DNA of 60,954 bases from a virus: positions 1 through 60,954 of IMG/VR virus record IMGVR_UViG_3300022220_000001. The stretch is one strand, 5' to 3'. Position numbers and translations under genes: made by a program. Of the stretch, positions 16,841-45,471 are shown one piece after another. A model generated the notes under the pieces. That model did no database searches. It saw only the letters and a program-made list of their open reading frames with translations, and had not been told where the DNA came from. Position 1 is the stretch's first letter; every line of letters starts with the position of its first letter.

Positions 16841-16869
16841 TTGATATTTCCGTAACATTGTAGTATGTT
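16841..16869 (+). promoter_or_regulatory. Promoter P9 (TTGATA-N17-TATGTT)
   Basis: TTGATA at 16841-16846 and TATGTT at 16864-16869, followed by AATA, matching the TATRTTAATA form of the other early promoters. Transcription would start near 16876 and give a leader of about 115 bases with a predicted structured element. Confidence 0.65.
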
Positions 16870-16920
16870 AATATTATGAACAAACGACCAAATTCCAAAG
16901 AAAATTAATTAATTAAATAT

Positions 16921-16981
16921 CCCGGTTAGGACAATTCCGCTCCGTTCTATGGTTCTTGGTCGTACCATAGTGAAAGCCGGG
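16921..16981 (+). ncRNA. Structured 5' leader (possible cis-regulatory RNA)
   Basis: CCCGG (16921) pairs with CCGGG (16977), closing a domain that contains a perfect 7-bp hairpin, CTATGGT (16947) with ACCATAG (16964) and a 10-base loop. The G+C content stands out from the surrounding AT-rich DNA. The ribosome site of the 16993 gene is just 3' of the closing stem, so folding could control its translation. No known riboswitch family is recognised. Confidence 0.5.
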
Positions 16982-16992
16982 TTTATATTTCC

Positions 16993-25450: not shown

Positions 25451-25888
25451 ATGAAATATCCAAAACAAAAGTGGTTAGACAAAAAGTCAAACAAACCTAA
25501 TAGAAAAAAACTTATACAGAAAACATCTGTTTTGTGGAGTCGGATAATAAAAACTCATGGTAGGTGTGCTATATGTAGCTCAATATCAAGTGTAGATGCC
25601 CATCATATTGTGCGGAAAGGAAAAGCTATCCATCCAGGGTGGTTTCTTCTTGAAAACGGTATCCCACTATGCGTGGATTGTCATAGAGACGGTATCCATT
25701 CGATGCATTATCCTACTACAAGAGTTTTCCAGAAAAAAATAAATACCTGGTTAAATAAAAAAGACCTCACTTACGAGGTCTTATATTCCATGTGTCATAC
25801 TACCCAACGTATGGATATTTTTACTATACAGGATATTTACTCAGCATTGAGAATTGTTGCCTCGCAGTTGGGGCAAGCTTCACCATAG
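25451..25888 (+). CDS. HNH endonuclease
   Basis: A 145-aa nuclease. CAICSSISS, VDAHHIVRKG and LCVDCHRDGIH give the HNH core with two zinc cysteine pairs and DAHH as the metal-binding His. This may be a homing enzyme or a packaging/recombination nuclease. It is not adjacent to terminase, so a free-standing accessory role is more likely. The 3' end of the gene carries, on the opposite strand, an intrinsic terminator for the antisense unit. Confidence 0.82.
   Translation: MKYPKQKWLDKKSNKPNRKKLIQKTSVLWSRIIKTHGRCAICSSISSVDAHHIVRKGKAIHPGWFLLENGIPLCVDCHRDGIHSMHYPTTRVFQKKINTWLNKKDLTYEVLYSMCHTTQRMDIFTIQDIYSALRIVASQLGQASP
25755..25782 (-). terminator. Intrinsic terminator of the antisense unit
   Basis: On the minus strand, AAGACCTC-GTAAGT-GAGGTCTT is an 8-bp hairpin followed by TTTT-ATTT. 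On the plus strand the hairpin lacks a downstream U-run, so only the minus orientation makes sense. It ends the antisense transcript inside the HNH gene. Confidence 0.75.
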
Positions 25889-29715: not shown

Positions 29716-29928
29716 ATGAATAAATTTGAAAATAGAGATTGCATGGAGGGTATGATGGAATACCCAGATAAATATTTTGAATTGGCTATTGTTGATCCTC
29801 CGTATGGTGGGTGTGATCACCTTGTGAATAGAGTGGGTGGGGGTTGGGCTCACAAATATGGCAAGAAAATTAACAAATGGGACATAGCTCCAAGTAAGGA
29901 AGGCGAGTATTATGCACGAAAGATTTAA
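29716..29928 (+). pseudogene. Truncated adenine DNA methyltransferase
   Basis: Only 70 aa. The N-terminus matches phage N6-adenine methyltransferases: NKFENRDCMEGMMEYPD followed by the catalytic AIVDPPYGG motif (residues 24-32). All target-recognition and SAM-binding (FxGxG) parts are missing; full-length relatives have over 200 aa. The frame ends inside the ribosome-site region of the next gene, so a deletion has removed the rest. The start has AAAGG. It is unlikely to methylate DNA. Confidence 0.75.
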
Positions 29929-30316
29929 TAGGACTGTATGGGCTTTTAAAAAAGATTTCACGGGTGCTTTGGCTAAATGTTTAGTAAAACTATCTCCGTA
30001 TCCTGTGCCAGATAACCTTGAAAAGATAATTGCTGAGTTTCATGAGCGCATTCCGTATGATTTTGACAAAAATGGTATGGTGAAAGTAAGTATCAAGGAT
30101 ATGAGAACAAAAATAAATAAAGTCCTTGAGTCCATGCCTGATGTTATGGCTTTGAACGAACGTAAGAACGGTAGGGAAGGTCATAGCTTTACCTGTCGAT
30201 ATAGTAAAAAGCCTGATCCCAACGATGATTTTATTGATATTATGGCCGTGGCACAAAATATTACTTGTGAGTTTGCAGAAAGGGCCGATGCACAAGCTTG
30301 GCTTGATAGAAAATAA
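29912..30316 (+). CDS. Hypothetical protein, 134 aa
   Basis: ATG after AAGGAAGG, overlapping the end of the methyltransferase remnant by 17 bases. Helical protein with PYPVPDNLEKIIAEFHERI and a SFTCRYSKKPDPNDDFIDIM region. It sits between terminase and portal; function unknown. Confidence 0.65.
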   Translation: MHERFNRTVWAFKKDFTGALAKCLVKLSPYPVPDNLEKIIAEFHERIPYDFDKNGMVKVSIKDMRTKINKVLESMPDVMALNERKNGREGHSFTCRYSKKPDPNDDFIDIMAVAQNITCEFAERADAQAWLDRK

Positions 30317-30348: not shown

Positions 30349-30376
30349 TTGTATAATTATTACATTTGTGTATATT
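30349..30376 (+). promoter_or_regulatory. Promoter P5 upstream of portal
   Basis: TATATT at 30371 followed by AATAG as in P4; the -35 candidate TTGTAT (30349) is weak. It would give a short leader to the portal ribosome site at 30401. Confidence 0.5.
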
Positions 30377-30413
30377 AATAGTTATATGCACAAATTTAAA
30401 AGGAGGAAGAAAA

Positions 30414-31931
30414 GTGGCAAAACTATATCCAACTAATGTTCCGATAGATCTAAGCTCTATCCCCATACACCCAGAAGTAGAAAAAAGAATTAAAAAGTGG
30501 GAAAGAATAGAAATTTTACTAGATCAAGATGAAGAAAAAATAACTGAAAATTTTTGTCGTATGTTGCCGAACGAAGATCCAAAATCGTATGATATCAGAA
30601 AAGAAACGTATAATGAGACTTTCGTCAATATCACACAGGATTTAATAACCGCACCAGTTAATTCTGTATTTTCTCAAGGGTTAAAAATCGATTACAAAAA
30701 CGAAAATTCTTCGATAGTTAAAAAAATGAATGAAAATGTAACTATTGGAAGTGAAAATATTACGATAAGAAGATATATAAAAGATTTTGTTGGTGTCGCT
30801 ATTAGGGGTTATGGCTCAGTTTGCACAATAATAGATAAACCCAAAAATGCGAGTGAAAGCCTTGCGGTTGAAATTAATGATGGTCTACCATACATTAGTA
30901 ATATCCAGCTTAAAGATATAAAAAATTGGTCATTAGATTATGAAGGAAATTTAAACTGGATAGTATACACCAAGAACTATCTTCCAGCGTGGGAAAACCC
31001 TTTTACTGAAAAAGCGCCAATATCTATTGAATTGGAATGCATGTACACCAAAAATGAATACATTGTGAGAAAGGCCGGTGGAAAAGTAATTAACGAATTA
31101 TCAATGGTACACAATTACGGTTTTGTCCCTGTTGTTATACAGGGGTCTTTTCTAGCCAAGCAGGGCGACATCTTAGGCAATGCAGCCATGTTCCAAACAT
31201 CCAACTCAATTATTAATATGAACAACAATCTAAATGTTGGTAATTATGAGTTGTATAAGCATGGTGGTGCGCTATTATTGATGCCAGAGGACGCAACAAG
31301 TGGCACCAACTTAGAAACCGATGAAAAAGGAAATGTCAATCTCAAAAAACATGATGATAACGGAATGTTAGTATATGGAGGTGATATACAACCGGACTAT
31401 TTATTGAAAGAGCTCAAGGTGGCTGATTTTATGGCCTGGGCTATGGCTTATCAAAGATACGCTATAGAAAACGAAAGAGATTTGAAATCAATAGCAAATA
31501 AAGGTACATCGGGTGAAATTGTGCAAGAATCTGGCTTTGCTAAAATGGTTGACCGTGAACCCCTGGAATCAAATCTCATTAGTTTGTCAGAAGATTTCGA
31601 GGCCTGGTATCAAAAAGTAACCGCAATGCGAGCTAAATTGATGAATGTAGAGGATGATAGTTCTATTGAGTTCGACAAAGACTATGACCTGAGGTCGACA
31701 AAACAAAAATACGAAGAGTTGAAGATAGCAATCGAAAATGATGTTAGGGCGGTTTCTCCTACCCTTTTCCGTGAGCACTACAAGAATATCGCACCTGGTG
31801 AGGTTAGAGATCCTGATATTCTTAGCACTATTAACAATGAGATTGATGAATATAATCCTGATCTTATCAACGATGAAATAGCCAAAGAAATAGAAGAACA
31901 ACAAAAAGAAAGCGAAAAAGAAAAAGAATAG
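30414..31931 (+). CDS. Portal protein
   Basis: A 505-aa protein forming the dodecameric ring that connects capsid, terminase and tail. GTG 30414 follows an AGGAGG site; an upstream ATG has none. The family pattern is visible: an N-terminal helical wing (YNETFVNITQDLITAPVNSVFSQGL), mixed central domain, then a long helix with AYQRYAIENERDLKSIANKGTSGEIVQESG that lines the channel, and a charged C-terminal tail. It is followed by a promoter and RNA element and then the glycan cassette, not directly by the head protein gene. Confidence 0.88.
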   Translation: MAKLYPTNVPIDLSSIPIHPEVEKRIKKWERIEILLDQDEEKITENFCRMLPNEDPKSYDIRKETYNETFVNITQDLITAPVNSVFSQGLKIDYKNENSSIVKKMNENVTIGSENITIRRYIKDFVGVAIRGYGSVCTIIDKPKNASESLAVEINDGLPYISNIQLKDIKNWSLDYEGNLNWIVYTKNYLPAWENPFTEKAPISIELECMYTKNEYIVRKAGGKVINELSMVHNYGFVPVVIQGSFLAKQGDILGNAAMFQTSNSIINMNNNLNVGNYELYKHGGALLLMPEDATSGTNLETDEKGNVNLKKHDDNGMLVYGGDIQPDYLLKELKVADFMAWAMAYQRYAIENERDLKSIANKGTSGEIVQESGFAKMVDREPLESNLISLSEDFEAWYQKVTAMRAKLMNVEDDSSIEFDKDYDLRSTKQKYEELKIAIENDVRAVSPTLFREHYKNIAPGEVRDPDILSTINNEIDEYNPDLINDEIAKEIEEQQKESEKEKE

Positions 31932-31960
31932 TTGACTTTTTAAAGAAAATACACTATGTT
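31932..31960 (+). promoter_or_regulatory. Promoter P7 for the small RNA
   Basis: TTGACT at 31932-31937, 17-base spacer, TATGTT at 31955-31960. The expected start (31967-31970) falls exactly at the first base of the TGAGCCCGA pairing segment of the RNA below. Confidence 0.75.
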
Positions 31961-31968
31961 ATATAGTA

Positions 31969-32085
31969 TGAGCCCGATATACCAAAAAACAAAAATCTTT
32001 CCCTTGGTTAAAAGTGCAACAATTAGTTGCAGTTGGCTGGATGTGCCTTCACTATGTGTCGGGCTCACACATCCAGCTTTTTTTT
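31969..32085 (+). ncRNA. Predicted pseudoknotted small RNA with intrinsic terminator
   Basis: About 117 nt. TGAGCCCGA (31969-31977) is complementary to TCGGGCTCA (32059-32067), nine perfect pairs. GCTGGATGTG (32036-32045) pairs with CACATCCAGC (32068-32077), ten pairs, followed by eight U, a terminator. The strand order 5'a, 5'b, 3'a, 3'b makes a pseudoknot with adjacent, stackable stems. Inside are hairpins GCAAC-AATTA-GTTGC (32016-32030) and ACCAA/TTGGT (31981/32004). The promoter immediately upstream and the terminator define a free-standing RNA. Confidence 0.65.
32036..32085 (+). terminator. Intrinsic terminator
   Basis: Ten-bp GC-containing stem and a U8 tract. It ends the small RNA and probably also much of the portal transcript, so the glycan genes depend on readthrough or antitermination. 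Confidence 0.8.
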
Positions 32086-32097
32086 ATTTGGAAAATT

Positions 32098-32292
32098 ATG
32101 ACTATTAAAGAGTTATATCAGTTGTTAATATTGCTTCCTGAAGAAATGGAAGTGGTGATACAGAAAGACGGCAATAAACTTTCTCCTTTGGTTGGTGGTG
32201 ATACTTGCGAGGTAAGCGTCCAAGGCCAACAGTATGGTGGTATCCCAACATTTCCAATAGAAAGAGTTTTCGTCTTGTATCCAACAAATTGA
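32098..32292 (+). CDS. Hypothetical protein, 64 aa
   Basis: ATG 32098 is chosen because the longer frame runs through the terminator. Contains LPEEMEVVIQKDGNKLSPLVGG, a beta-hairpin-like pattern seen in small phage proteins of unknown role. Weak ribosome site. Confidence 0.55.
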   Translation: MTIKELYQLLILLPEEMEVVIQKDGNKLSPLVGGDTCEVSVQGQQYGGIPTFPIERVFVLYPTN

Positions 32293-32321
32293 TAAAACAT
32301 TAGAAACGGGTAGAAATTAAC

Positions 32322-33227
32322 ATGAAAATATTATTTAACGCCTTAGGTTGTGGTTTGGGCAATAATGGCGGCACACACACTATTGTTAGTAGTATTAATT
32401 GTTTAAATAAATTAAAGCATAACGCATCTTTAGCAGCCGTAAAAAACAACTACGATTGGGGTTGCGTTTCCAATTTTATTGGTGAGATGCGAGATACTGT
32501 TTATAGCGATGTTGTTGTCAATGTATCTGTGTGGGATGTCGACTATACCCTGCTTATGTCGTGTGATAAAAAGGTGTGGTGGATGCGTGGTTGGGAAAAA
32601 TGGGTAAAAGGAGAGCAGTATTTAATAGGCCAGATTAAAAAATTTGTGGGTGCAGGTGGTAAAATAATTGTTAATTCTTCGTGGTTGATACAGCAGTTAA
32701 AAGAAAAGTGTGGTGTGGATTCACAACTGTGCTATTCTGGTTTAGATTTGGATTTCTGGAAGCCTTCAGTAATACATACTGATAAGCATACTATAGGTGC
32801 TCTCTGGCATCCTAAGCATAAGACAAAAAATTATTCGATGTTTAGCACACTGAAAGCAATATACAATGAAAGAACGGATATGGTATTTCAAACTGTCCGT
32901 GGGAATTTAACACAAGAACAAATGAGGATATTTTATGGAAACTGTAATGCTTGGCTTTCGTTGTCTGAGTTGGAAGGCTTTCACCAATGCCCTGCTGAAG
33001 CCGCATTGTGTGGGTGTGATATTATCTATAATGATGTTGATTCCGGTGGCACGCGCGATTACTGCACACCTGAGACAGCGACACCGTTTAAATCTTTTAG
33101 CGAACTCGTATTATCCCTGGAAAACCAAATATCCAGTCAAACGAAACGAGACAAAATGCAGGAAGTTTTGGTAAATAAAATTGGCAGTCGTGAAAGTAAT
33201 ATGAAAAAATTTGTGGAGATGCTATAA
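32322..33227 (+). CDS. GT4-like glycosyltransferase
   Basis: A 301-aa GT-B-fold enzyme, first of the glycan cassette. The C-terminal domain carries SELEGFHQCPAEAALCG (about residue 216), the nucleotide-sugar-binding glutamate motif of GT4, and GALWHPKHKTKNYSM before it fits the linker strand. The N-terminal GNNGGTHT is a Gly-rich acceptor-domain loop. It would transfer a sugar from a nucleotide donor in the cytoplasm; donor and acceptor are unknown. Weak ribosome site. Confidence 0.75.
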   Translation: MKILFNALGCGLGNNGGTHTIVSSINCLNKLKHNASLAAVKNNYDWGCVSNFIGEMRDTVYSDVVVNVSVWDVDYTLLMSCDKKVWWMRGWEKWVKGEQYLIGQIKKFVGAGGKIIVNSSWLIQQLKEKCGVDSQLCYSGLDLDFWKPSVIHTDKHTIGALWHPKHKTKNYSMFSTLKAIYNERTDMVFQTVRGNLTQEQMRIFYGNCNAWLSLSELEGFHQCPAEAALCGCDIIYNDVDSGGTRDYCTPETATPFKSFSELVLSLENQISSQTKRDKMQEVLVNKIGSRESNMKKFVEML

Positions 33228-33229
33228 TT

Positions 33230-33775
33230 ATGGCAAAGATAACATACGAAAAATGTGAATATTGTAATCGTAGGCATTGTGACGGTAAAGAGTTTTTGGT
33301 AAAAGGTGAATATGAATATTACGAAAAAATTATAGTAGAAAAAATAGTATGCAGTAATTTGGTGTATAGTAGTGCCGACAAAGACTTGGAACTAAAACAA
33401 GATGAAATGCGTGATAAACTTAAAACAAACCTTCGCAATAACAAAGCATCGTTGGAAGATCTGCAAAAAATTGTTTGCGAAGGTTTGTTTTCAAAAAAAA
33501 TTACAGAAGATGATATAAAAAAATATGCGGCCAAACAACACAATTTGGTGAAAAGCAGTGCTAAAGCACAAAAAGAACTAGAAAAAATAAAGAAAAAAAC
33601 CATCCCAAAAAAATATTATCATAATATCGTGTGTGGTCATGGTGCTAATTTTGATATAGAAGCGATTCCTGTAAAGCAATGTGACCCAAAAGAAATATCA
33701 ATAATAAAAGCAGCACAAAAGATGAAAGAAGAAATATTAGATGGTGATGATTTGTCTCCTGAGATAGGAAATTAA
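33230..33775 (+). CDS. Hypothetical coiled-coil protein with Cys clusters, 181 aa
   Basis: N-terminal CEYCNRRHC zinc-like cluster, a central Lys/Glu-rich coiled coil and a later IVCGHGANFDIEAIPVKQC region. It overlaps the next glycosyltransferase by one base. It is not like any glycan enzyme I recognise; it may be a structural or assembly factor. Confidence 0.6.
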   Translation: MAKITYEKCEYCNRRHCDGKEFLVKGEYEYYEKIIVEKIVCSNLVYSSADKDLELKQDEMRDKLKTNLRNNKASLEDLQKIVCEGLFSKKITEDDIKKYAAKQHNLVKSSAKAQKELEKIKKKTIPKKYYHNIVCGHGANFDIEAIPVKQCDPKEISIIKAAQKMKEEILDGDDLSPEIGN

Positions 33776-34698
33776 TGAAATATCCTAAATTAATAATTTT
33801 ATACGGTAGATTCCAAACTACAACAAACTGGAAACAACAGCGCATGATAGACGGTGGCGCAACGTGCATGTATCGTGAGATGGCGCAAACGTTTGGTGAA
33901 ATAATTTATCTTGCCCCACAGAAAATAAGCAAGAAATGGGAAAAGTGCTTTATATCAAAGAAAACATTAATTGATTATTTAAAAAGTTTTCCCGATGCAG
34001 TAATTTGGAGTGTAAAACATGATTTGAATAAAGATAGCGTGTTAAACTTAATTCCAAATAAAAAAGTGTATTATTCGTGTTGTTCATATGATATGTATAA
34101 TTCAAAATGCGATATATCGTTGGTCGATTTACCAAGCAGGATAAAAAACAACGGAAAACTTTGGGTAAAAGGCAAAAACCCTACATATTGGAAGCCAAGT
34201 AATAATAAAATATATGACCTCTTAATAATGGGTTCTCGCGGAGACAAAAATGAGTTGTTTTTCCTAAAAAACATGCAACAAACTGACAAGGAGTATAGTA
34301 TACTGTGGATTGGTGGTGATAAGTTCCGTGATAAACAGATAAATAAAAAGCATCAAGTATGCTATACTCCTTTCTTTTCTATGGAAGATGTAAGAAAACA
34401 TATCCCTTTGGCTAAAATGGGTGTAATTCTTTCAGAACATCCAGCGGAAGGATTTCCACAAAGCTTTCTTGAAATGACCATGTGCGGGGTGCCAGTTGTG
34501 TATTTGTTCAAAGGTAGCCCAAATCGTGTGTATAGTGGTAACTTTACCGGAATTGTTGATAAGCATATTGTTTCCGCAGTTGTTGAGGATAAGCTATCTA
34601 CTTGGACTATGGAGAGGTCGGAAAGTGTGAGAGAGTACGCTAAAAATAATTATAGTTTAGAAAAATCTTATGAATCAATATTGTTTGGATTAGAATGA
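33775..34698 (+). CDS. GT4-like glycosyltransferase
   Basis: A 307-aa protein. The C-terminal half has LLIMGSRGDKN, ILWIGGDKFR, and SEHPAEGFPQSFLEMTMCGVPVVY (about residue 220), a clear GT4 donor-binding motif with catalytic-region glutamates. The N-terminal domain is diverged. It overlaps its neighbours at both ends. Likely substrate unknown. Confidence 0.78.
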   Translation: MKYPKLIILYGRFQTTTNWKQQRMIDGGATCMYREMAQTFGEIIYLAPQKISKKWEKCFISKKTLIDYLKSFPDAVIWSVKHDLNKDSVLNLIPNKKVYYSCCSYDMYNSKCDISLVDLPSRIKNNGKLWVKGKNPTYWKPSNNKIYDLLIMGSRGDKNELFFLKNMQQTDKEYSILWIGGDKFRDKQINKKHQVCYTPFFSMEDVRKHIPLAKMGVILSEHPAEGFPQSFLEMTMCGVPVVYLFKGSPNRVYSGNFTGIVDKHIVSAVVEDKLSTWTMERSESVREYAKNNYSLEKSYESILFGLE

Positions 34699-34868
34699 AT
34701 GTAACAATAAAAGGTTTTAATACTCCACCGTATAGAGTGATAGGTGAATTCGAATCAGTTAGAATCGACCAAGGCAGCATAGATGATTGTTGTGTGATAG
34801 AATACGTAAACGGTGAGTATGTTATATATATTAGCAATCAAAAAATTCCTATAAGGATTGTGCGTTGA
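34695..34868 (+). CDS. Small beta-rich protein, 57 aa
   Basis: ATG overlaps the stop of the glycosyltransferase (ATGA), and the stop overlaps the next start (TTGA). A compact all-beta sequence (VIEYVNGEYVIYIS). Coupling on both sides supports it as a real gene; function unknown. Confidence 0.55.
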   Translation: MNVTIKGFNTPPYRVIGEFESVRIDQGSIDDCCVIEYVNGEYVIYISNQKIPIRIVR

Positions 34869-35611
34869 AGCATTTAGTAATAACAATGGCAGACGAAATG
34901 TACTTCCCCAATGGGAAGCTTTTCCTTGAGACAAGAAAAAGGGTTCATGCTGACTTTTTATTATACACCCCAGATGAAACAGGGTTGTGTGAGTATAGTA
35001 GGCGAGTTTGCGCACATCACGAAATAGATGTGAGGCCTGTAGACCAGAACCAGTGGAACACGATGAATCAAAGTTTAAAATTCTATTACATGGCGTGGAA
35101 TTATAGGGAATATGATTATGTTACAATGTGTGATTTTGACACTTTCTTTATAAGCGATTGGTCGAAGGTTGTGTTTGGTAATGATTTTGTGTTTGGCGTT
35201 ACAACAACTGAGGGTTACCCACAACACAACTACCTTAGGTCTAAAGTTAACGGTGGTGTAATTTTCTTAAAGAATCATCAAGACACAAAAAGCATGCTTG
35301 GGATAGCGCACAAGTGTATTAAAGACGGTGGACATATAGACCTTCCTCAGTATGACCAAATATGGAAGACCTTGGAAGATCCGAAGCGGCGAGATGGGAA
35401 ACGGCACTATCGAACAAATCATGCGTGGTGGTGTGATCAGGTTTTTTTATCTGCTCTTGTAATACATGGGGGGTACAATGTTAGGGCTTTCCCATGCAAA
35501 AGATTCAATGCTTTGGATAGTCGCCCGGATACTTCTGATATTCCTGGCGTGTATATAAAACATCTCAAATCAGCTAATAGAATAGTGAAAAAAGGAACAA
35601 TTAGTGGATAA
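34865..35611 (+). CDS. GT-A-fold glycosyltransferase
   Basis: A 248-aa enzyme with CDFDTFF (DxD, about residue 90) for metal and nucleotide-sugar binding, NGGVIFLKN near 130 and WWCDQVFLSALV near 188, the arrangement of GT8/GT32-like transferases. TTG start within the preceding stop codon. Overlaps the methyltransferase gene. Acceptor not known. Confidence 0.72.
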   Translation: MKHLVITMADEMYFPNGKLFLETRKRVHADFLLYTPDETGLCEYSRRVCAHHEIDVRPVDQNQWNTMNQSLKFYYMAWNYREYDYVTMCDFDTFFISDWSKVVFGNDFVFGVTTTEGYPQHNYLRSKVNGGVIFLKNHQDTKSMLGIAHKCIKDGGHIDLPQYDQIWKTLEDPKRRDGKRHYRTNHAWWCDQVFLSALVIHGGYNVRAFPCKRFNALDSRPDTSDIPGVYIKHLKSANRIVKKGTISG

Positions 35612-36464
35612 GAAGCTGTGGAAAATTACGTACAGCAATAAAACGCAGTATTTTGTGCTGGCAAAAGAAAAAGAAATTGCAGTGGCTTTAATAGAAAAAC
35701 ATTACCAAGAAACAGAATCCACAATAGACCAGGAAGAGTGTATGGATTCTGTGAAATTGGTTGGCGAATTGTTGAGTGCTGAAGATAAAAGTATTGTTTA
35801 CTCAGATATCTTTTTAGGGGTGGGATTAGTGGCTGAATATACGGAAAAGTGGAATAAGTACAAAATAGGTAATATCCCTTGGATAAACGCTAATAGAAAT
35901 CATTTGGCACGCCAATTGTTTATTAATTACGTGAAGGACAATTGTGGGGCAATAAGATCGGTATTGGAAATAGGCGCTGGAGAGTGTATAGAGGCGTGTG
36001 CGTTGATGGATGTTGTTGATTATACTGTTATGGATACATCAGATTTGTTTTTGTCTCATGCTAAGCAATTAGGGCTAAAAACTAGAAAATGTGATATGGT
36101 GAATTGTGATGAAAAATATTTTGAGTATGATCTTATATATATGTGTGGGGTTATAGAGCATACACCTGATATAACAAGAACAATAAGTGGCATAAATAAT
36201 ATTGGAAAAAAATATTATATCACCATGTTTCGTTGGGGGTATAATGATAACTTATCTACGTGGTTCGAGCCAAAAAAAAAATATTATACATCAACGTTTG
36301 ATATTGAAAAAATCTTTAATTTGTTTGGTGATGCGGAAGAAAAAATTATTGTACTCAAAGATGGTGGTGTAGAACAATACGAATGTTATGAAAAAAATAT
36401 AGATAAAACAATGAAAGAACATAGAAACGGAAATTGGCTTTCTTTTTATGGAAACTGCTATTAA
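35604..36464 (+). CDS. SAM-dependent methyltransferase
   Basis: A 286-aa class I methyltransferase. Motif I is VLEIGAGECIEA (about residue 119), followed by a YTVMDTSD acidic strand and the IYMCGVIEHTPD motif typical of small-molecule or sugar methyltransferases. The extra N-terminal 110 residues may recognise the acceptor. In glycan clusters such enzymes often cap chains by O-methylation. GTG start overlapping the glycosyltransferase. Confidence 0.7.
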   Translation: MDKKLWKITYSNKTQYFVLAKEKEIAVALIEKHYQETESTIDQEECMDSVKLVGELLSAEDKSIVYSDIFLGVGLVAEYTEKWNKYKIGNIPWINANRNHLARQLFINYVKDNCGAIRSVLEIGAGECIEACALMDVVDYTVMDTSDLFLSHAKQLGLKTRKCDMVNCDEKYFEYDLIYMCGVIEHTPDITRTISGINNIGKKYYITMFRWGYNDNLSTWFEPKKKYYTSTFDIEKIFNLFGDAEEKIIVLKDGGVEQYECYEKNIDKTMKEHRNGNWLSFYGNCY

Positions 36465-36503
36465 AGCATTAAAAACATTATTATAAGAAAGGTACGGTAC
36501 GAT

Positions 36504-36743
36504 ATGATAGATCAGAGTTTCACTCCAAAAACAATTGATGTTGTTGAAGTTAGTATTGTCGGCAGAGAAGGAAGTACAATACAACAAAATATTTCACAAG
36601 CACTAATGGTAGGAGTTGCCGAAAACGTCACGGTGAATTTGACAATGGAGGAAAAGGTTTTAAGATTTAGACCAATTGATATTATTAATTATATAGAAAA
36701 GTTTTGTCAAGTCGGCCAGGATAATAAAAAAGATGCAGATTGA
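36504..36743 (+). CDS. Hypothetical protein, 79 aa
   Basis: ATG after AAAGG. Contains VVEVSIVGREGSTIQQNISQALMVG. Not recognised. It overlaps the next glycosyltransferase by 11 bases. Confidence 0.55.
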   Translation: MIDQSFTPKTIDVVEVSIVGREGSTIQQNISQALMVGVAENVTVNLTMEEKVLRFRPIDIINYIEKFCQVGQDNKKDAD

Positions 36744-37620
36744 TATCACAACAACCGCAATGCCTAGACCTGACATATTGGATAGGTGCTACTCTTCATT
36801 TCAAAAGTATCTTATTGGGGTAGATTTTACGGAATGTGATTGTTATATCAACATAGATCCATTACCGGCTAGTAATGAAAGACAGTGCAAGTATATTAAC
36901 CAAATGATTAGCGCCACTATCGAAACCGCAAAAAAACATTTTGGAAATGTCATTGTCAGAGCCCCAAAAACACCAAATTATGCAGCGGCCTACAAATGGT
37001 TATGGAGTAAGGCACAGTCAGATATAATTCTTAACATTGAGGATGATTGGGAATTACTAAGGCCGATTAGTGTGAATCATTTGATTAAGAAGTTTACTGC
37101 GATAAAAACATTATACCAAATAGTTTTTCGTGCGTATAGTTATGTTTATCCTACTTGTTGCACAAGTCCATCATTGCTACACAGAAGATGGTATAAGCCA
37201 GTATCAAACGGAATGAACAAAATAGAAAACCCAGAATCACAGATACATAAAAACAATAATAATAAATTTAGTGTGTTCGTTCCGAATCGCAAAACTTGTG
37301 ATAGTAAGAAACACCCTGGGAAAAAAAGAGAGATAGAAAAGTATATTATTCCTTACCCAAAAAACAATTTTGATAGAAGCTGTATTATTGTGAAGGATAT
37401 AGGGAAAAAATGGATAGAAAACAGTCCATATATTAGCCCGGTAGACCTAATACGGCGAGAGAAGGAAATGTATCGGAAGCATAAACATAAGATGGATAGA
37501 GATCAAAAGATATATGCCAAGAAGTGCATAGAAAGCCTAAAAAAGTCTAATTTCTTATCGTGGGTGATAAGGCCAGACGTAAACCCTCTAAAGTGGCTAA
37601 TGGAGTATAAATGCAAATAA
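36733..37620 (+). CDS. GT-A-type glycosyltransferase, paralog of 44728 gene
   Basis: A 295-aa protein with LNIEDDWELL (about residue 100), an acidic metal-site motif shared with the 44728 protein (HLEDDWEFI). Both start with a short strand and RPD/RPEIL helix (MPRPDILDRC, LRPEILKRT), so they are paralogs. The basic middle and C-terminal regions may bind an anionic acceptor. Exact GT family not certain. Confidence 0.6.
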   Translation: MQIDITTTAMPRPDILDRCYSSFQKYLIGVDFTECDCYINIDPLPASNERQCKYINQMISATIETAKKHFGNVIVRAPKTPNYAAAYKWLWSKAQSDIILNIEDDWELLRPISVNHLIKKFTAIKTLYQIVFRAYSYVYPTCCTSPSLLHRRWYKPVSNGMNKIENPESQIHKNNNNKFSVFVPNRKTCDSKKHPGKKREIEKYIIPYPKNNFDRSCIIVKDIGKKWIENSPYISPVDLIRREKEMYRKHKHKMDRDQKIYAKKCIESLKKSNFLSWVIRPDVNPLKWLMEYKCK

Positions 37621-38456
37621 CGATACACACATATATAGGCCACAACTCAGCGGCCTATGCTGAGAATCTTAAAAAACATTGTGACAGGCTTAAGAGTGGG
37701 CAACATGAAATCTTTTACGAATGTTACCGGACAATAAATCACACTCAGTACAAGAAAACCGAGCGCATCCCCATTGGATGGGAGCATATGGCAGATGTTA
37801 ATGCCCATGAAGTTTCTAGTAGTTATAGCCACGCAAAGTGTATCCACAGATCCATTGAAGAAATTGAGCATAGCACAGGATGTCATATTATAATGGATGC
37901 AGATACGTGTATTACATATAAGCATTGGGATGTGGAAGTACTAGAAATGTTGAAGCAATATGATATCTTTGGGTGGGAAAATAAAAGAGGTGTTCCCTCG
38001 GTAATGTTTTTTGCTTTTCATCCTGTTATACTAGACAAAATGAAATTAGATTTTACTCCTATGCTAAAAAACGGAAAAGAAATGTGTGCGAAAGATAGAA
38101 TATGCACTCCGGAAGAAGCAGATGTGTACAAAATAGAACTTGGAGAATATATAAAATGCGATACTGGCTGGAGGATCCCGAAGCTACTACGAGATGCTGA
38201 TTTACATTATTGTTGTTTAAAAAGGGTTCTTGGAGTTGACAAAGAATCAATATTGCCGTTTAAAGATAGGAGGCAGAAAGAATTCTGTTTCAAGGGTGAT
38301 AAGAACGAACACATGTGCGAATGGCATTTGAACTGGAAATTGTTTGGTACACACATGCAAGCTTCACGGAGTTTTGCCTTTAACTCTAACCGTGGCAAAG
38401 TGTGGAAAAGTAGGATAGATATGTACATGCAAAAGGAGCATGGTTTCACAATATAA
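37611..38456 (+). CDS. GT-A-type glycosyltransferase-like protein
   Basis: A 281-aa protein with the nucleotide-sugar DxD motif IIMDADTCI (about residue 95), preceded by AKCIHRSIEEIEHST, and a later W-rich segment (HMCEWHLNWKLFG). It overlaps both neighbours. Assignment rests on one motif and neighbourhood. Confidence 0.55.
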   Translation: MQITIHTYIGHNSAAYAENLKKHCDRLKSGQHEIFYECYRTINHTQYKKTERIPIGWEHMADVNAHEVSSSYSHAKCIHRSIEEIEHSTGCHIIMDADTCITYKHWDVEVLEMLKQYDIFGWENKRGVPSVMFFAFHPVILDKMKLDFTPMLKNGKEMCAKDRICTPEEADVYKIELGEYIKCDTGWRIPKLLRDADLHYCCLKRVLGVDKESILPFKDRRQKEFCFKGDKNEHMCEWHLNWKLFGTHMQASRSFAFNSNRGKVWKSRIDMYMQKEHGFTI

Positions 38457-38794
38457 TGGATAGAATTTACAAACTTTTTACTGGCGATTATGTTGATTTG
38501 GGTAATATTATTAGTATTGGTAAGATGCAAATCCTAAACAAAAGCGGCCAGTGGAATGTAGATATGAAATTGTATTTAAAAATTTTTATAAAAATGCAAT
38601 TGTGTAATAGTGATCTAATTATACAAGAGGATATCAACGAAGAATATGCCCATTACGAACATTGGATAGATGAGGATGGTTACGATAATACCGAAATGCC
38701 GAAAATTACCAATGTGGGAAAGAAGTATTATGAAGAAAAATATAATGAATTTATAAACGCATGGGAAAGGTATGTTAATGATGAAATACAGTAA
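38456..38794 (+). CDS. Hypothetical protein, 112 aa
   Basis: Begins at the preceding stop. The N-terminal 75 residues resemble a small beta domain (YVDLGNIISIGKMQIL, NVDMKLYLK); the remainder is acidic and aromatic. Unrecognised. Overlaps the methyltransferase gene. Confidence 0.5.
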   Translation: MDRIYKLFTGDYVDLGNIISIGKMQILNKSGQWNVDMKLYLKIFIKMQLCNSDLIIQEDINEEYAHYEHWIDEDGYDNTEMPKITNVGKKYYEEKYNEFINAWERYVNDEIQ

Positions 38795-39308
38795 AACAGC
38801 ACACATACCAATAATAGAAGAAATCGCAAAGGGAATTAAGGCAGCGGGTAATAATCAAAGATACCTTGAGTTGGGAATAGCAAAAGCCAGGTGTTTCAAT
38901 CGTATAGCACCATATTTTGAAAAGTCTTATGCGGTTGATGTAAATTTTGAGGCATTGCTAAATGTAAGTGTAAAAACATTGTGTGTTATGAAGTGTGTTA
39001 ATACTGATGTTTTTTTTGAGCAACCCAGGAATATTAAGTTTAACCTTATATTTATCGATGCGAATCATGCTATCAAAAACGTTGTAGCGGACACTTGTCA
39101 CGCGTTAAGTGTAATTGCTGATGAGGGTATAATAATACTACACGACACTTATGCACCTGATGAGGAATCGGCACCACATTGTAAAGATGCGTGGAGAATA
39201 CAGGAATACCTAAAGAGTGATGACAGTCTACAATATATAAATTTACCTTTTTACTACGGATTAACTATTGTTAAAAAACACGTTAAAAGAAAATGGTGGA
39301 TTGAGTAA
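38778..39308 (+). CDS. Class I methyltransferase (Methyltransf_24-like)
   Basis: A 176-aa enzyme. Motif I is YLELGIAKA (about residue 30), then YAVDVNFE with its acidic ribose-binding residue, FIDANHAIKN near 93 and LHDTYAPDE near 120, the pattern of cephalosporin-hydroxylase/Methyltransf_24 proteins that act on sugars. ATG 38778 is spaced from GGGAAAGG; ATG 38772 is too close. Confidence 0.68.
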   Translation: MMKYSKTAHIPIIEEIAKGIKAAGNNQRYLELGIAKARCFNRIAPYFEKSYAVDVNFEALLNVSVKTLCVMKCVNTDVFFEQPRNIKFNLIFIDANHAIKNVVADTCHALSVIADEGIIILHDTYAPDEESAPHCKDAWRIQEYLKSDDSLQYINLPFYYGLTIVKKHVKRKWWIE

Positions 39309-39809
39309 GTGGAAAACGAAGATAAAGTAAAAGAACTTCAAGAAGAAGTTGAAGATCTAAAGATTGATATCACGGCGCAAAAGGAGTTCACGCGGTTGTA
39401 CGCAGCCGTGAATAAGACTGAAAACAGAGCTGTTTTAAATTGTGCCAAGATACAGATACTAGAGGACGAAATAAAAGGGGTTAAGGTTGATATCACCGAT
39501 ATAAAGACAGGTATGAAGGAAGCGACAACGGATAGGATGGAGATAAAAAAAACTATGATGGCAACCGATACCAAAGTAAGCACGGTACTACTTACAATGG
39601 AAAACTTTATAGTAAAGTATAAGAATGATCTTTGGAAATTTTTAGTAGGAATATTTATTATGCTGTTCACTTTTTTTGGTGGAATATGGGTAACACAAGA
39701 CAGAAGTATTAAGACATTTAAGGATGATATTATTAAGCTTCTTATAGAGGACAAGGTAGGGGGAAATATAAAAGAAAGGAAAAAAGTGTATGAATATGAG
39801 AAAAAATAG
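39309..39809 (+). CDS. Coiled-coil protein with one membrane helix (holin-like)
   Basis: GTG start directly after the methyltransferase stop. Residues 1-105 are acidic, heptad-like coiled coil. A hydrophobic segment FLVGIFIMLFTFFGGIWV lies near 116-133, then a basic tail. This resembles hemolysin-XhlA-type proteins that sit next to lysis genes. The following two genes are also membrane proteins, so a lysis block is possible. Equally it could anchor glycan enzymes at the membrane. Confidence 0.5.
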   Translation: MENEDKVKELQEEVEDLKIDITAQKEFTRLYAAVNKTENRAVLNCAKIQILEDEIKGVKVDITDIKTGMKEATTDRMEIKKTMMATDTKVSTVLLTMENFIVKYKNDLWKFLVGIFIMLFTFFGGIWVTQDRSIKTFKDDIIKLLIEDKVGGNIKERKKVYEYEKK

Positions 39810-39885
39810 GCGAGGAATATATAAATGGACTGTTATTGCCATGGCTTTGGCAACGATTCTTATATGGGTAATTAGAGGGTGCTAA
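39790..39885 (+). CDS. Tiny membrane peptide, 31 aa
   Basis: ATG after AAAGG within the end of the preceding gene. Basic N-terminus (MNMRKNRRGIYK) and one helix (WTVIAMALATILIWVI) ending in Cys. TAATG overlap with the next gene. A small holin or spanin component is possible. Confidence 0.5.
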   Translation: MNMRKNRRGIYKWTVIAMALATILIWVIRGC

Positions 39886-40538
39886 TGGACAAAAAAGCTT
39901 TTGTATTAACAATGATAATAGGTACTGTGGTTGGATGGGAATGGAATTTTTTTCATTACAAAAATGGCGTTGTTCATGCCTGGGATTTTGGTACTGGTGA
40001 GACTTTTGGTATATTGATCTGTGGTATTCCTGCCGTTGATTGGGCGTTTTATGCTGTTACAGGATTTTTCTTCCTTACTATGATTGTAATTGATCCACTA
40101 AAAAAACCATATGAGAAAGTCTTTGGGTTAGATGATTGTAGTTATTGTAGCCATCACACTATTAAGGTAACGAACTTTTTTGTTTTGGGCATAGCAATAA
40201 TTGTTGGTATAGTTTTCTTCGGTTGGTCTGGCACGTTTAGCTCTATACTTTTTGGTATCCCTTCTTTTTTGGCATTACTCTATATTGATGGCGATTTAAA
40301 TGTCCCACATTTTATTCGTACTGGGATTATTGTAGTTCCAACTAATGTAATTTGGGAAATTTTTGCTACCCCCATTACTAAGCAGTGGTGGTATAACCCT
40401 GAATCAGGTTTGTTTTCAGATCATTGGTGGTGGTGGGGTATACCGTTTGAGATGACACCAATGTTAGGTTTTTTTGCGTGGTATTTTATATTTACTACTT
40501 ATAGTTATTTGAGAAAGGCTTTCCCTGATGGAAAATAA
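39885..40538 (+). CDS. Polytopic membrane protein, 217 aa
   Basis: About six hydrophobic helices. Motifs GIPAVDWAFY and GIPFEMTPMLGFFAWYF recall the PxE motifs of lycopene-cyclase-domain (CrtYcd) proteins, and IWEIFATPITKQWWYNP also fits that pattern. This is only a distant resemblance. In this location it might process a lipid carrier or be a membrane partner of the glycan enzymes. ATG in TAATG overlap with the peptide gene. Confidence 0.5.
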   Translation: MDKKAFVLTMIIGTVVGWEWNFFHYKNGVVHAWDFGTGETFGILICGIPAVDWAFYAVTGFFFLTMIVIDPLKKPYEKVFGLDDCSYCSHHTIKVTNFFVLGIAIIVGIVFFGWSGTFSSILFGIPSFLALLYIDGDLNVPHFIRTGIIVVPTNVIWEIFATPITKQWWYNPESGLFSDHWWWWGIPFEMTPMLGFFAWYFIFTTYSYLRKAFPDGK

Positions 40539-40821
40539 AAAACCCAATCTATTGTATACAAATAAAATGCGTACTGTATGTGAGGTGATAAGGGAAACGA
40601 ATGATATTATTTGTGACGAACGGATCAAAAAGGGCATTAGAAAGCAGTTGAAAGATAAAATAACAGAAATTCATAAGATGGTTAAAAGAATGGATAAAAA
40701 ACTGATAGAATATAAAGAAAATTATAGTCAGAAATGGTATGAAGAAAATAATGGCTATGAAAATAGCTATTCCAAAAGACAACACAGGAAAAGAGTAAAA
40801 AAGAGCAAGCATGAGTCTTAA
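40528..40821 (+). CDS. Hypothetical basic helical protein, 97 aa
   Basis: Overlaps both neighbours. Very Lys-rich with a helix RIKKGIRKQLKDKITEIHKMV and a basic tail (RQHRKRVKKSKHES), suggesting nucleic-acid or membrane-surface binding. Unknown family. Confidence 0.55.
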   Translation: MENKKPNLLYTNKMRTVCEVIRETNDIICDERIKKGIRKQLKDKITEIHKMVKRMDKKLIEYKENYSQKWYEENNGYENSYSKRQHRKRVKKSKHES

Positions 40822-41437
40822 AACAGTATACACAGTGATAGCCGGGAAAGGCTACAAGCTAAGAGAACCTGAAAAGGTTTGCCATGGGTGGCAATATGTA
40901 TGCTATACAGACCAGTCTTTTAAGTCGGATGTATGGGAGACCAGAGCTCTACAACAAACCCAGGATAGTAGCAGAAGACGATCCAGGGTTTCCAAGATCG
41001 CAGTTGTATTTAACGGTGTTTCTATATATATGGATGCTAAATTTCGGCCTGTTAATAATTTGGATTATTATGTGGAAAAATATCTTGATGGGTATGATAT
41101 GGCAATTATGTCTCACCCTAAAAGGAATTGTTTATATAAAGAGTCAACCTTCCTTACAAGGACAAACATAGAAAAATGGGAGAATATACAGCTACAGTTG
41201 AGCCGATACATTAATCAAGGGTTTCCGAAGGAGTACGGTTTGTGGGCACCTGGTATAATGATTCGAAGGGATAATGAAACGGTTAGAGATTTTTGTGGAT
41301 TATGGTGGAATGAGTATATTAGTGGAACCGAAAGAGATATGATCAGTTTAGCCTATACAATATGGAAAACTCGCCATTCAAAAATAAAAATAAATGTAAT
41401 GCCATTTAGAAAAACATACAAGAGGTTTCGAATATGA
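40811..41437 (+). CDS. DUF616-like glycosyltransferase
   Basis: A 208-aa protein with the pattern of DUF616 transferases: YMDAKFRPV (about residue 73) as the metal-binding segment, SHPKRNCLYKE near 99, and TERDMISLAYTIW near 177. Relatives act on capsule or cell-wall glycans. Overlaps its neighbours. Substrate unknown. Confidence 0.68.
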   Translation: MSLKTVYTVIAGKGYKLREPEKVCHGWQYVCYTDQSFKSDVWETRALQQTQDSSRRRSRVSKIAVVFNGVSIYMDAKFRPVNNLDYYVEKYLDGYDMAIMSHPKRNCLYKESTFLTRTNIEKWENIQLQLSRYINQGFPKEYGLWAPGIMIRRDNETVRDFCGLWWNEYISGTERDMISLAYTIWKTRHSKIKINVMPFRKTYKRFRI

Positions 41438-41691
41438 GAATCCTTGATATAACAACAGCACTAATAAAATTTATATTAGATAAACCAGCAGAGGTTTGTC
41501 TGAAGTGTAAAAATTTATATATTGATAAAGACACTAAGTCTATTCATTATAGTTCTAAATATTGCTGCAAGATACATAAAATCCGTGATGAGTATTATTA
41601 TATTAAAGGAATTGTGTCTTATTGGGATTGTAGTGTTATAAGAGGTAGAAATATAATATTGAATCAATATTGTAGAAATTATAAACAGTGA
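41434..41691 (+). CDS. Hypothetical Cys-rich protein, 85 aa
   Basis: ATGA overlap with the preceding stop. CLKCKN, YCCKIH, and later CSV and YCRN could bind zinc. No known family. A 25-base gap follows. Confidence 0.5.
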   Translation: MRILDITTALIKFILDKPAEVCLKCKNLYIDKDTKSIHYSSKYCCKIHKIRDEYYYIKGIVSYWDCSVIRGRNIILNQYCRNYKQ

Positions 41692-41716
41692 AAAAATGTA
41701 AAATATAGTAGGAGTA

Positions 41717-42070
41717 ATGATGGTTAATATAACGAAGTGTGACAACTGTGATGGCGTTGGTATTATGGCATGGGCAATATATGATGATAATGATAAAGAT
41801 GATAATGGTGAGTACAAAAGCCCTCAGTTGTTGAAAATAAAAAAAACAGAAATGGAAATAGAAAAAGCAACAAAAGCACCTCATGACGGTAAAGAAATTA
41901 GAGGATGTGATAATAAAGGGGTTGAATGTAATTTGCGATATCATTTTTGCTATAACTGCAACGGCAGCGGCGAACAACCTATTAGTGATAATATGCGGTA
42001 TACTATATTAGTAAATTTATACAATAGGTTAGGAAGTATTGAAAAGTTATTAAGCGATAAACCAAGATGA
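41717..42070 (+). CDS. DnaJ-zinc-finger-like protein, 117 aa
   Basis: ATG after AGGAG. CDNCDGVG and CYNCNGSG are CxxCxGxG motifs as in DnaJ zinc fingers, separated by an acidic, Lys-rich insert. Might act as a zinc-dependent chaperone for neighbouring enzymes. Overlaps the next gene. Confidence 0.6.
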   Translation: MMVNITKCDNCDGVGIMAWAIYDDNDKDDNGEYKSPQLLKIKKTEMEIEKATKAPHDGKEIRGCDNKGVECNLRYHFCYNCNGSGEQPISDNMRYTILVNLYNRLGSIEKLLSDKPR

Positions 42071-42513
42071 ATTTTGCAAAATATATAAAAACATTAAAAT
42101 TAAAAACTGTAGGCATGGTAGAGGTGCCAATAGAAACTATAAGTTGTCAGTACAACCCTGATAGATACAAGTTTTGGCGTGAAGCTTGCGGAGAGTCTTT
42201 AGATATAAAAAACGGGCCTTTCTGGGAATATCTCATGTACAAAAAACTTGACAAATATAATAGGTTGTTTAAGCTATACGGCAGATCTGAGGTGTGGGTC
42301 ACAAACAATATTCTCAAGTTTCAGAAAATGTATAATGATATCTCTGTTAATGGATTTGATGAAAAAAAAGGCTTTCCTATAATTCTTGGATCACCTGTGA
42401 TAAATAATAAGTATAGTAAGGGCCACGAAATTTTTGAAGGGCACCGAAGATTATCGATATGTCTATATCTGGGAATCAAGCAAAGGGTAAAATTATGCAA
42501 AATTATCTCATAA
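42067..42513 (+). CDS. ParB/Srx-fold-like protein, 148 aa
   Basis: The C-terminal segment IFEGHRRLSICLYLGIK (about residues 122-138) matches the GxRR/GHRRL motif of ParB/sulfiredoxin-like proteins, some of which hydrolyse or bind nucleotides. The rest shows YNPDRYKFWREACGES. Such domains occur in sugar clusters. A CTP- or CMP-binding role is only speculative, suggested by the neighbouring cytidylyltransferase. Confidence 0.5.
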   Translation: MNFAKYIKTLKLKTVGMVEVPIETISCQYNPDRYKFWREACGESLDIKNGPFWEYLMYKKLDKYNRLFKLYGRSEVWVTNNILKFQKMYNDISVNGFDEKKGFPIILGSPVINNKYSKGHEIFEGHRRLSICLYLGIKQRVKLCKIIS

Positions 42514-43070
42514 TATGCGCAGGTTCAACGATAATGGAATATAGAAAACGAATCCAGAGTTATATTAACCGTATTCACCCTATAGTAATTGGAATAAACA
42601 ATGTAGCACACTTGTTTAAACTTGACTATCATATGTGGACAAATTACCGAAGATTTAGAAGCTTTTATTCCGGTGATAGCACAAAATTGATATTTAGTAA
42701 TAGCCTCTATGAGAAAATTCTAGAAAAAAAGTTGTATGGGTTTGGGAGCACATACGCAGCAGATGATATTATACTTATTCATGATGAAATCGAAAGATGG
42801 AGAACGGCAGGTATTAGGGCTATACAATACGCCAACGATAACAATCATGGCACAATAGATGTTGTTGGAATGGATGGGTATAGCCTAAAGTATAACGGTA
42901 ATCAACATTGTTACGGAGTCGGAAGTACCGATACTGATAATAAGGAATATTGTAAAACAAAAGACAAAGTTATGTGTGCTAATATGCTTAGGATGAAAAA
43001 AGAGGGTGTTAAATTCAGGATACTAACACCAACCGTTTTTAAAAAATTCTATTGTGATAATATTTTATGA
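42495..43070 (+). CDS. MAF/DUF115-like or glycosyltransferase-like protein
   Basis: The ATG at 42495 (191 aa) follows AAAGGG and is preferred to one 36 bases earlier. The start (LIICAGSTIMEYRKRIQSYI) and VIGINNVAHLF segment look like DUF115/MAF-type proteins, linked to nonulosonic-acid transfer. Near the end DVVGMDGYSLKYNG is unusual. Its place directly before aldolase and cytidylyltransferase genes supports a role with the ketoacid sugar. Confidence 0.5.
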   Translation: MQNYLIICAGSTIMEYRKRIQSYINRIHPIVIGINNVAHLFKLDYHMWTNYRRFRSFYSGDSTKLIFSNSLYEKILEKKLYGFGSTYAADDIILIHDEIERWRTAGIRAIQYANDNNHGTIDVVGMDGYSLKYNGNQHCYGVGSTDTDNKEYCKTKDKVMCANMLRMKKEGVKFRILTPTVFKKFYCDNIL

Positions 43071-44032
43071 AGATATTAGATTGTACACTTAGAGACGGTG
43101 GGTACTGCAACAATTGGGTTTGGAATTATAATGTTCCGGCACAGGTTGTCGATGCCTTATATCCTCATGTAGACATCATAGAAATAGGATATCGTAGGCC
43201 GAAAAAGAATGGATATGAATATTGTGGTGATGAATTTATTAGAAATATTTTTGAAGAAAGACACTTTAATAAAATCGCAATTATGATTGATATCAAAGAT
43301 TATATGTGTGGTGACATGTTTAGTCAGGAACAATTAGATATACATTTTGATGAAAAAAAAGTATCTCCTATAGAATATGTAAGGGTGGCGTGCACAATAA
43401 ATAACCTAAACGCGGCGATTAAAGCAACATTGGTATTGAAACAAAAAGGGTATAAAACAACAATAAACATAATGAAAGCCACACTTTTAACAACCAAACA
43501 GTGGCAGGACATATACAATATGATGTTTGATGAAATATTTAATCATTTATCATATCTATACTTCGCTGATTCGTTTGGTAGTGTCTTCGGCAACAAACTA
43601 GTAGCGCCGGAAATAATGGTAAGCTATCGGCCTGTTGAGGTTGGTATTCACCCACACAATAATACAGGTATGGCTTTTTCTTATTGGAAAGAAGCTGATG
43701 CAGATATTATAGATTCGTCAATAGCAGGTCTTGGGCGTGGCGCTGGAAATCTTGATACAATCCAAGTCTTAATGGATAGGGATGGTACGCTTGATCGCAA
43801 GTTATACGAATGCTTAAAAGATATAGAAAAAATTAAAAAGAAAGCACAGTGCGGTTATTGCTACGAGTATCATTATTGTGCGAAAAACAACATTCACCCG
43901 AATTATGCGGTATACCTTAAGGGGTTGCGTAAGTATGGGCGATTTGATATAATAAAAATACTTGGGGAAATTGATAACTACAAAAAGATCTCTTTTGATA
44001 AGAGATATATGGAGAATATAATAAATGAGTAA
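43067..44032 (+). CDS. DRE-TIM aldolase (4-hydroxy-2-oxoacid aldolase-like)
   Basis: A 321-aa metal-dependent TIM-barrel enzyme. DCTLRDGG (residues 4-11) is the family DRE motif, GIHPHNNTG (about 193) supplies the metal-binding His pair, and AGLGRGAGNLDT (about 220) is the conserved loop. Relatives add pyruvate to aldehydes, or cleave 4-hydroxy-2-oxoacids. Next to a CMP-sugar synthetase it would fit making an ulosonic-type ketoacid sugar. It is unusual for a phage. Overlaps both neighbours, so co-translated. Confidence 0.8.
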   Translation: MKILDCTLRDGGYCNNWVWNYNVPAQVVDALYPHVDIIEIGYRRPKKNGYEYCGDEFIRNIFEERHFNKIAIMIDIKDYMCGDMFSQEQLDIHFDEKKVSPIEYVRVACTINNLNAAIKATLVLKQKGYKTTINIMKATLLTTKQWQDIYNMMFDEIFNHLSYLYFADSFGSVFGNKLVAPEIMVSYRPVEVGIHPHNNTGMAFSYWKEADADIIDSSIAGLGRGAGNLDTIQVLMDRDGTLDRKLYECLKDIEKIKKKAQCGYCYEYHYCAKNNIHPNYAVYLKGLRKYGRFDIIKILGEIDNYKKISFDKRYMENIINE

Positions 44033-44741: not shown

Positions 44742-45471
44742 TATAGACTTGTGTATTGTAGCAACGTTAAGACCAGAAATATTAAAACGGACTATTGTAA
44801 GCTTTTTTAAACATATTACTTATGTTGGTGGTATAAACTTATGCATTAACATAGATTGTGTGCCAAAATACAAAGACCACGGTAAAAGAGAACAATGTAT
44901 CAATGATATTGGTGTTATTTGTGGTATGGCTGCGCAAATATTTAAAAAAAACTGTAAGTCTTTCATAGTCACAGATGGTTTTAATTTTTCAGCTGCGGTA
45001 AAGAGGTTGTGGGTAAATACAAAATCGGACTATGTATTTCATCTTGAGGATGATTGGGAATTTATAAAGGATATTGATCTTAATGAATGTATAGAAAGAA
45101 TGAACAACGAAGATTTTGACTATATGAGGTTCCCAAAGAAAAACGCACCTCATCTAAATAGATTATGGAAAGTTGCCTTGCAACCTTCATTATGGCGTGG
45201 TAATGTAGTACGTGAACTCGCTGAACACATGAAGACAGACAAAGATCCGGAAAAACAATTAAGAATAGGGCAAGGTAATAAAAAGTTGGATAAAATATTA
45301 ACCAGAATACAAAAAAAGGGACTCAAGGATTATTGTTCAGAATGGTGTTGCCAGGATATTGGTAGGGAGTGGAGAGAAGAACAAGGTCTTATCAAGTGGA
45401 ATGCTGTTGAACCTGAGAAGGTATCAAAAAACAATCAGAATGCAAAAAATATTACTTGGTGGGAAAAATGA
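44728..45471 (+). CDS. GT-A-type glycosyltransferase, paralog of 36733 gene
   Basis: A 247-aa protein with HLEDDWEFI (about residue 106) matching the paralog's IEDDWELL, and an N-terminal ATLRPEILKRT helix. It lies directly after the cytidylyltransferase and is the best candidate to use its CMP-sugar, but no sialyltransferase motif is seen. Confidence 0.6.
   Translation: MEKSNIDLCIVATLRPEILKRTIVSFFKHITYVGGINLCINIDCVPKYKDHGKREQCINDIGVICGMAAQIFKKNCKSFIVTDGFNFSAAVKRLWVNTKSDYVFHLEDDWEFIKDIDLNECIERMNNEDFDYMRFPKKNAPHLNRLWKVALQPSLWRGNVVRELAEHMKTDKDPEKQLRIGQGNKKLDKILTRIQKKGLKDYCSEWCCQDIGREWREEQGLIKWNAVEPEKVSKNNQNAKNITWWEK

Follow-up and report, generated by a model that had tools for sequence, protein, structure and literature searches.

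What is the function of the RNA encoded at positions 31932-32085 of the phage record IMGVR_UViG_3300022220_000001, between the portal gene and an extended series of genes for glycosyltransferases and related proteins? The record, analyzed at its full length and referred to below as the window, is complete-looking, with 60,954 bases and identical ends of 127 base pairs. At this locus, a promoter-like site is followed by a segment whose 5' end can pair with the loop of an intrinsic terminator, forming a pseudoknot, and an ATG at the predicted transcription start opens a reading frame that runs through the terminator. We propose, with a probability of roughly 0.45, that the RNA is the leader of the glycan-cassette operon and acts as a terminator gated by its own 5' end, which would be opened by a ribosome on the leaderless start codon.

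The pseudoknot and its predicted promoter

The locus comprises the following features, where S1 is the pairing of the 5' end with the terminator loop and S2 is the terminator stem; lengths are in nucleotides (nt) or amino acids (aa), and ORF stands for open reading frame.

31932..31960, plus strand: predicted sigma70-type promoter, TTGACT-17-TATGTT, directly after the portal stop codon (-35 box TTGACT, 31932-31937; -10 box TATGTT, 31955-31960; spacer 17 nt)
31968..32108, plus strand: predicted leaderless ORF, 46 aa, MSPIYQKTKIF..., its ATG 7 nt past the -10 box
31969..31977, plus strand: S1 5' strand TGAGCCCGA (core; with G-U pairs it reaches 31981)
32013..32034, plus strand: internal hairpin GCAAC/GTTGC in the long connecting loop
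32036..32045, plus strand: S2 5' strand GCTGGATGTG
32059..32067, plus strand: S1 3' strand TCGGGCTCA, within the terminator loop, extending to 32055
32068..32077, plus strand: S2 3' strand CACATCCAGC, contiguous with the S1 3' strand
32078..32085, plus strand: T8 tract of the intrinsic terminator

S1 consists of 9 Watson-Crick pairs, and further U-G, A-U, U-G, and A-U pairs lengthen the helix to 31981/32055; S2 has 10 pairs, and the two helices are mutually compatible. Inspection of the sequence thus reproduces the promoter, both helices, the adjoining 3' strands, and the T8 tract as described in the first-pass annotation, made from the sequence alone. Of the internal hairpins placed there in the gap, GCAAC..GTTGC is present, while ACCA..TTGGT is weak. 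The same annotation held such pairing to be unlikely by chance, and this is borne out: a descriptor of the arrangement matches this place alone on both strands of the genome, with 0.05 matches expected per shuffled genome, the folding of the segment beats 200 of 200 shuffles (z -3.7), and the pairing is conserved in relatives (see below). Chance pairing was therefore rejected on the strength of shuffles and relatives; a search for a tRNA or tmRNA found none.

The promoter by itself is a 9/12 match, and promoter-like sites in the region number 20 vs. 15.4 expected. All promoters considered here are predictions; the site at 31932 derives its support from its position and from the same arrangement in relatives. 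Only four strong terminators were found in the genome, at 32035-32078, 49790-49843, 52591-52617, and 25761-25782.

Relatives sharing the gene order

No close relatives came from direct searches that used the portal, the terminase, or an AAA protein as query. Terminase alignment with relatives of about 40% identity led to the contigs L113 (65%) and L114 (60%), and portal alignment to L191, L192/L193, and L194. L113, L114, and L191 share the order portal, gap, small ORF(s), and the same first glycosyltransferase, and in all three gaps a promoter-like site occurs together with this pseudoknot, spelled differently each time: S1 reads TGAGCCCGA in the window, GAATCCGCAA in L114, GAGTCCGC in L113, and GGTTGGC in L191, and S2 differs likewise. 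Among 400 dinucleotide shuffles of each gap, those scoring as well as the original number 0 for the window, L114, and L113, and 1 for L191. As the pairing is kept while the letters change, this looks like selection on structure. A terminator kept in relatives while the complement is lost, named in the first-pass annotation as the outcome that would speak against it, is the opposite of what we see: the complement is kept with changed letters, and L191 retains the pairing even though its U-tract is gone. The window and L114 both have a U-tract of T8; that of L113 is weak, and L191 has none.

The small ORF that follows differs in every phage while the RNA stays; the downstream 64-aa ORF, considered as a regulated partner, was dropped because it differs in every relative. 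Gap inspection and shuffle scoring found no element in L192/L193 and L194, and none was found 5' of the glycosyltransferase of L200 and L202. In L196, the site directly 5' of the first glycosyltransferase, occupied by the pseudoknot RNA in other relatives, has a short G/T-rich repeat (GGTCA.., 150-360).

Recurrence ahead of other operons

Further copies were sought by two scans that took no account of coding. The first, blind to promoters, looked for a pseudoknot with a T-run in all fetched loci and gave eight hits below -47 kcal/mol, seven of them with a promoter of at least 9/12 ending 5-14 nt before S1; five shuffles of all loci gave one hit below -47, and such a promoter accompanied 1 of 219 shuffled hits. 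The second, anchored on promoters, covered 1.37 megabases (Mb) of related contigs and returned eight hits of -37.6 kcal/mol or lower; the best value in 6.86 Mb of shuffled sequence was -34.7.

Altogether we count 12 copies, from related, mostly fragmentary metagenomic contigs: those of the window, L118, L012 (two), L014, L181, L115, and L135; those of L114, L113, and L191, which were assigned from their location; and, in the window again, a probable further copy around 16876. Several copies share ancestry, hence the counts given for them are not independent events. The class thus spans about ten related phage contigs and is not in Rfam. An intrinsic terminator stands ahead of the structural genes in the window, L114, L115, L118, L012, and others, the exception being L191. 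The RNAs of L012, L014, and L181 can be aligned; here the S1 letters have changed and remain paired, and the internal hairpin has changed as well.

The element in L012, L014, L181, and L135 heads genes that run opposite to the terminase genes. In the first three, helicase or primase-type genes follow (judged by eye), and the L014 protein matches annotated phage primases. L012 carries its two copies in series on the minus strand (2690-2568 and 1949-1844, 741 nt apart), ahead of two neighboring gene groups. The probable second copy of the window lies 5' of replication genes (primase/helicase at 18622):

16841..16986, plus strand: promoter TTGATA-17-TATGTT, ATG 16876, 10-codon ORF
16884-16891: S1 ACGACCAA of this copy; its S2 is CTATGGT/ACCATAG with outer CCCGG/CCGGG

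Its score alone is within the reach of chance. Seven named phages with related terminases or primases were searched, and the element was found in none; the L181 RNA sequence and the L014 leader peptide had no convincing match in phage records, and an exact 16-mer of the S1 region gave only four unrelated chance matches in viral contigs.

A predicted leaderless frame

In 11 of the 12 copies an ATG stands at or beside the predicted transcription start (L014 is counted only with an alternative -10 box). Among the promoter-anchored hits, 7/8 have an ATG at +6/+7 past the -10 box, vs. 4.6% of promoter-like sites generally. The frame from this start codon (ATT in L113) is open to the end of S2 in 10/12 copies; each of the other two frames is open through S2 in 1/12, and shuffles predict 7-25% per copy. 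All long open frames end past the terminator, in many cases at or close to the start codon of the following ORF. In the window, the leader ORF crosses both the pseudoknot and the terminator, and its stop (32106-32108) overlaps the next ORF (ATG 32098). The letters of the start codon are paired in 9/12 copies, either in S1 or, in L135, in a similar helix; in L012 this involves a G-U pair. The leaderless frame from 31968, the probable copy at 16876, and the recurrence before other operons in related phages are additions to the first-pass annotation.

At 35-47% identity, the leader peptides of L012, L014, and L181 resemble one another; outside this trio, the peptides are completely different.

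A proposed terminator gated by the 5' end

Of the three roles proposed in the first-pass annotation, the switch ahead of the glycan cassette is the one we favor; a free RNA is possible, and a role in the virion finds no support. The switch would work as follows. Transcription would start at or beside the A of the AUG (31968). If the 5' end is free, its first 9-13 nt would pair with the terminator loop, drawing the distant S2 strands together and sealing the start codon; with S1 and S2 formed, transcription would stop, releasing a compact RNA of about 115 nt with protected ends. If a ribosome loads first on the leaderless AUG, it would block S1, and by translating through the S2 5' strand it would hold the terminator open, so that the polymerase could enter the cassette. 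The ribosome may then pass on to the next ORF, as the end of the leader ORF overlaps the start of that one.

Without S1, the S2 strands lie 17-46 nt apart. Terminator loops are ordinarily far shorter. With the strands so much farther apart than in ordinary terminators, S1 should help S2 to form. Both activities assigned to the ribosome have precedents: 70S ribosomes bind an AUG at or near the 5' end of leaderless messages (PMC9031893), and translating ribosomes block intrinsic terminators (PMC5021804, PMC4824070).

Several points weigh against this proposal. Transcription, translation, and the dependence of termination on 5'-end occupancy are only what we infer from sequence; that S2 depends on S1 is a presumption of the model, as is efficient translation of leaderless RNAs by the host. 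In the window, codon usage of the leader ORF is neutral, with log-odds of 0.6, -2.2, and 0.6 for frames 0, 1, and 2, and overall it is no more than mildly positive. The leader ORF is short in L191 (3 codons) and in the copy at 16876 (10 codons), both with poor U-tracts, and L113 starts with ATT instead of ATG; due to these exceptions, the open frame is not universal. Where the frame is short or the U-tract weak, the mechanism must be another one, which might act on how the following gene is translated. Finally, the 9-nt stretch AAAAGTCTG is invariant in L012, L014, and L181, third codon positions included, hence a constraint at the RNA level exists too.

If the proposal is true, leaderless initiation, whose regulatory use is little understood, gains a clear role, namely, sensing free ribosomes to gate phage operons; and the action of a terminator would depend on the extreme 5' end of the RNA, a simple and portable design. 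A broader version is more doubtful than the proposal itself: that the RNAs form a widespread and so far undescribed class of phage leaders, in which pairing of the 5' end with the terminator loop reports a ribosome on a leaderless start and switches whole operons, while the terminated product doubles as a free small RNA.

Alternative explanations

The best surviving alternative, though an unlikely one, is a free trans-acting regulatory RNA with its own promoter and terminator, acting, e.g., via its A-rich and UCUUUCCC loop, while other promoters serve the operon and the RNA lies at its head by coincidence. The strong T8 terminator of the window and L114 fits it, as do the two ends buried in stems, like those of stable small RNAs, and the persistence of the RNA next to a first small ORF that varies between relatives. 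Moreover, an attenuator product can act in trans too; rnTrpL of Sinorhizobium meliloti is an example (PMC7298713), and the phage RNA might likewise have both roles. However, the pseudoknot is still there when the U-tract is lost (L191) or weak (L113), the element heads co-directional genes in the contexts read, and the open frame from +1 is left unexplained.

Still less probable is a set of ordinary parts, i.e., a cassette promoter and the terminator of the upstream structural transcript, with the 5' pairing merely stabilizing the RNA. The promoter does lie directly after the portal stop codon, and the terminator would insulate the cassette, but this reading leaves unexplained why S1 is conserved through compensatory changes and why there is an ATG at +1 with an open frame.

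We give marginally less credence to processive antitermination, in which the RNA would alter RNA polymerase so that it crosses the long cassette, in the manner of HK022 put or of the EAR element known from exopolysaccharide operons. The position of the RNA at the 5' end of long operons, the glycan cassette of 17-18 kilobases (kb) included, fits these systems, and co-directional terminators do lie further downstream (49790, 52591); against it, there is no sequence or Rfam match to any described element, the RNA itself ends in a terminator, and, pairing aside, most of the sequence is not conserved.

The least probable alternative, a leaderless small-protein gene with the terminator inside its frame, yielding a non-stop mRNA whose peptide is the product that matters, would fit the long frames ending past the terminator and the peptide likeness among L012, L014, and L181, but that likeness can arise because the RNA strands are paired, and elsewhere the peptides differ wholly. 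The comparison here is with arfA, a non-stop mRNA (PMC10107115): in both, no stop codon interrupts the frame before the terminated RNA ends, while the phage RNA is leaderless and pseudoknotted.

Comparison with known systems

Permissive searches of Rfam 15 with the RNAs gave scores only far below gathering, with no family at the gathering score, and a partial literature search uncovered no account of such an arrangement. Leader-peptide attenuation comes closest among known systems. The RNA would work like an attenuator, with a predicted small ORF between the promoter and the structural genes that overlaps the terminator region, and, except in L191, an intrinsic terminator ahead of those genes; we do not file it as a member, because a search for mutually exclusive terminator and antiterminator folds revealed no antiterminator stem that competes. 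Among attenuators, rnTrpL, a leaderless one for trp whose terminated product functions in trans, shares the promoter-proximal small ORF, the leader terminator, the ORF beginning at the first base of the RNA, and the terminated small RNA (PMC7298713). Unlike in rnTrpL, the phage ORF runs through the terminator, no run of codons for one amino acid is seen, and the control element is a pseudoknot of the 5' end with the terminator loop, found in phages.

The preQ1, fluoride, and ZTP riboswitches resemble the phage RNA in having a leader pseudoknot next to or within the terminator region. Here, in contrast, there is no Rfam match, no conserved ligand pocket is seen, and the terminator stem and the initial bases of the transcript are themselves part of the knot. 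The lambda pR'-tR' 6S RNA and HK022 put are likewise short phage transcripts or leaders that head an operon and involve a terminator or antitermination; they differ in that the phage RNA has no Rfam match, and we know of no pseudoknot with a leaderless ORF of this kind in them. Type III toxin-antitoxin RNAs (ToxI-like) consist of a pseudoknot unit repeated in tandem beside a toxN-type gene; here, the element is a single unit with no tandem repeats, and the adjoining 64-aa ORF has no family match in Pfam or PADLOC.

Genome context

The window has a guanine-cytosine content of 36%, and its long ORFs are nearly all on the plus strand. The neighbors of the RNA are as follows.

30366-31931: portal gene (PHROG portal match), the predicted promoter of the pseudoknot RNA lying directly 3' of it
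32098..32292, plus strand: first ORF after the RNA, 64 aa, its start overlapping the end of the leader ORF, 13 nt past the T-tract with no intervening promoter
32322..33227, plus strand: first glycosyltransferase of the cassette, orthologous in position in L113, L114, and L191

The cassette (32098-49500, about 17-18 kb) holds glycosyltransferase, methyltransferase, and HMGL-like genes and separates the portal gene from the scaffold/capsid genes; in L012 the portal and scaffold/capsid genes are adjacent. At its other end, just 5' of the presumed scaffold and capsid genes, lies a unit (49530-49843) whose promoter, at 49549, is near-identical to that at 31932 (81% identity over 55 nt). Next come a 53-aa ORF (49595-49756), which has a Shine-Dalgarno-like site, and the strong bidirectional terminator 49790-49843; no pseudoknot like that at 31969 was found in this unit.

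Between the terminase and portal genes, a 134-aa ORF (29912-30316) has a Pfam match to Tad5, an inhibitor of type I Thoeris (E 4e-34), and lies directly 3' of a 70-aa fragment (29716-29928) resembling the beginning of a DNA methyltransferase. Elsewhere in the window, three tandem repeats lie within ORFs, at 12639-12905 (unit of 12 bases), 18401-18608 (15), and 7777-8592 (126).
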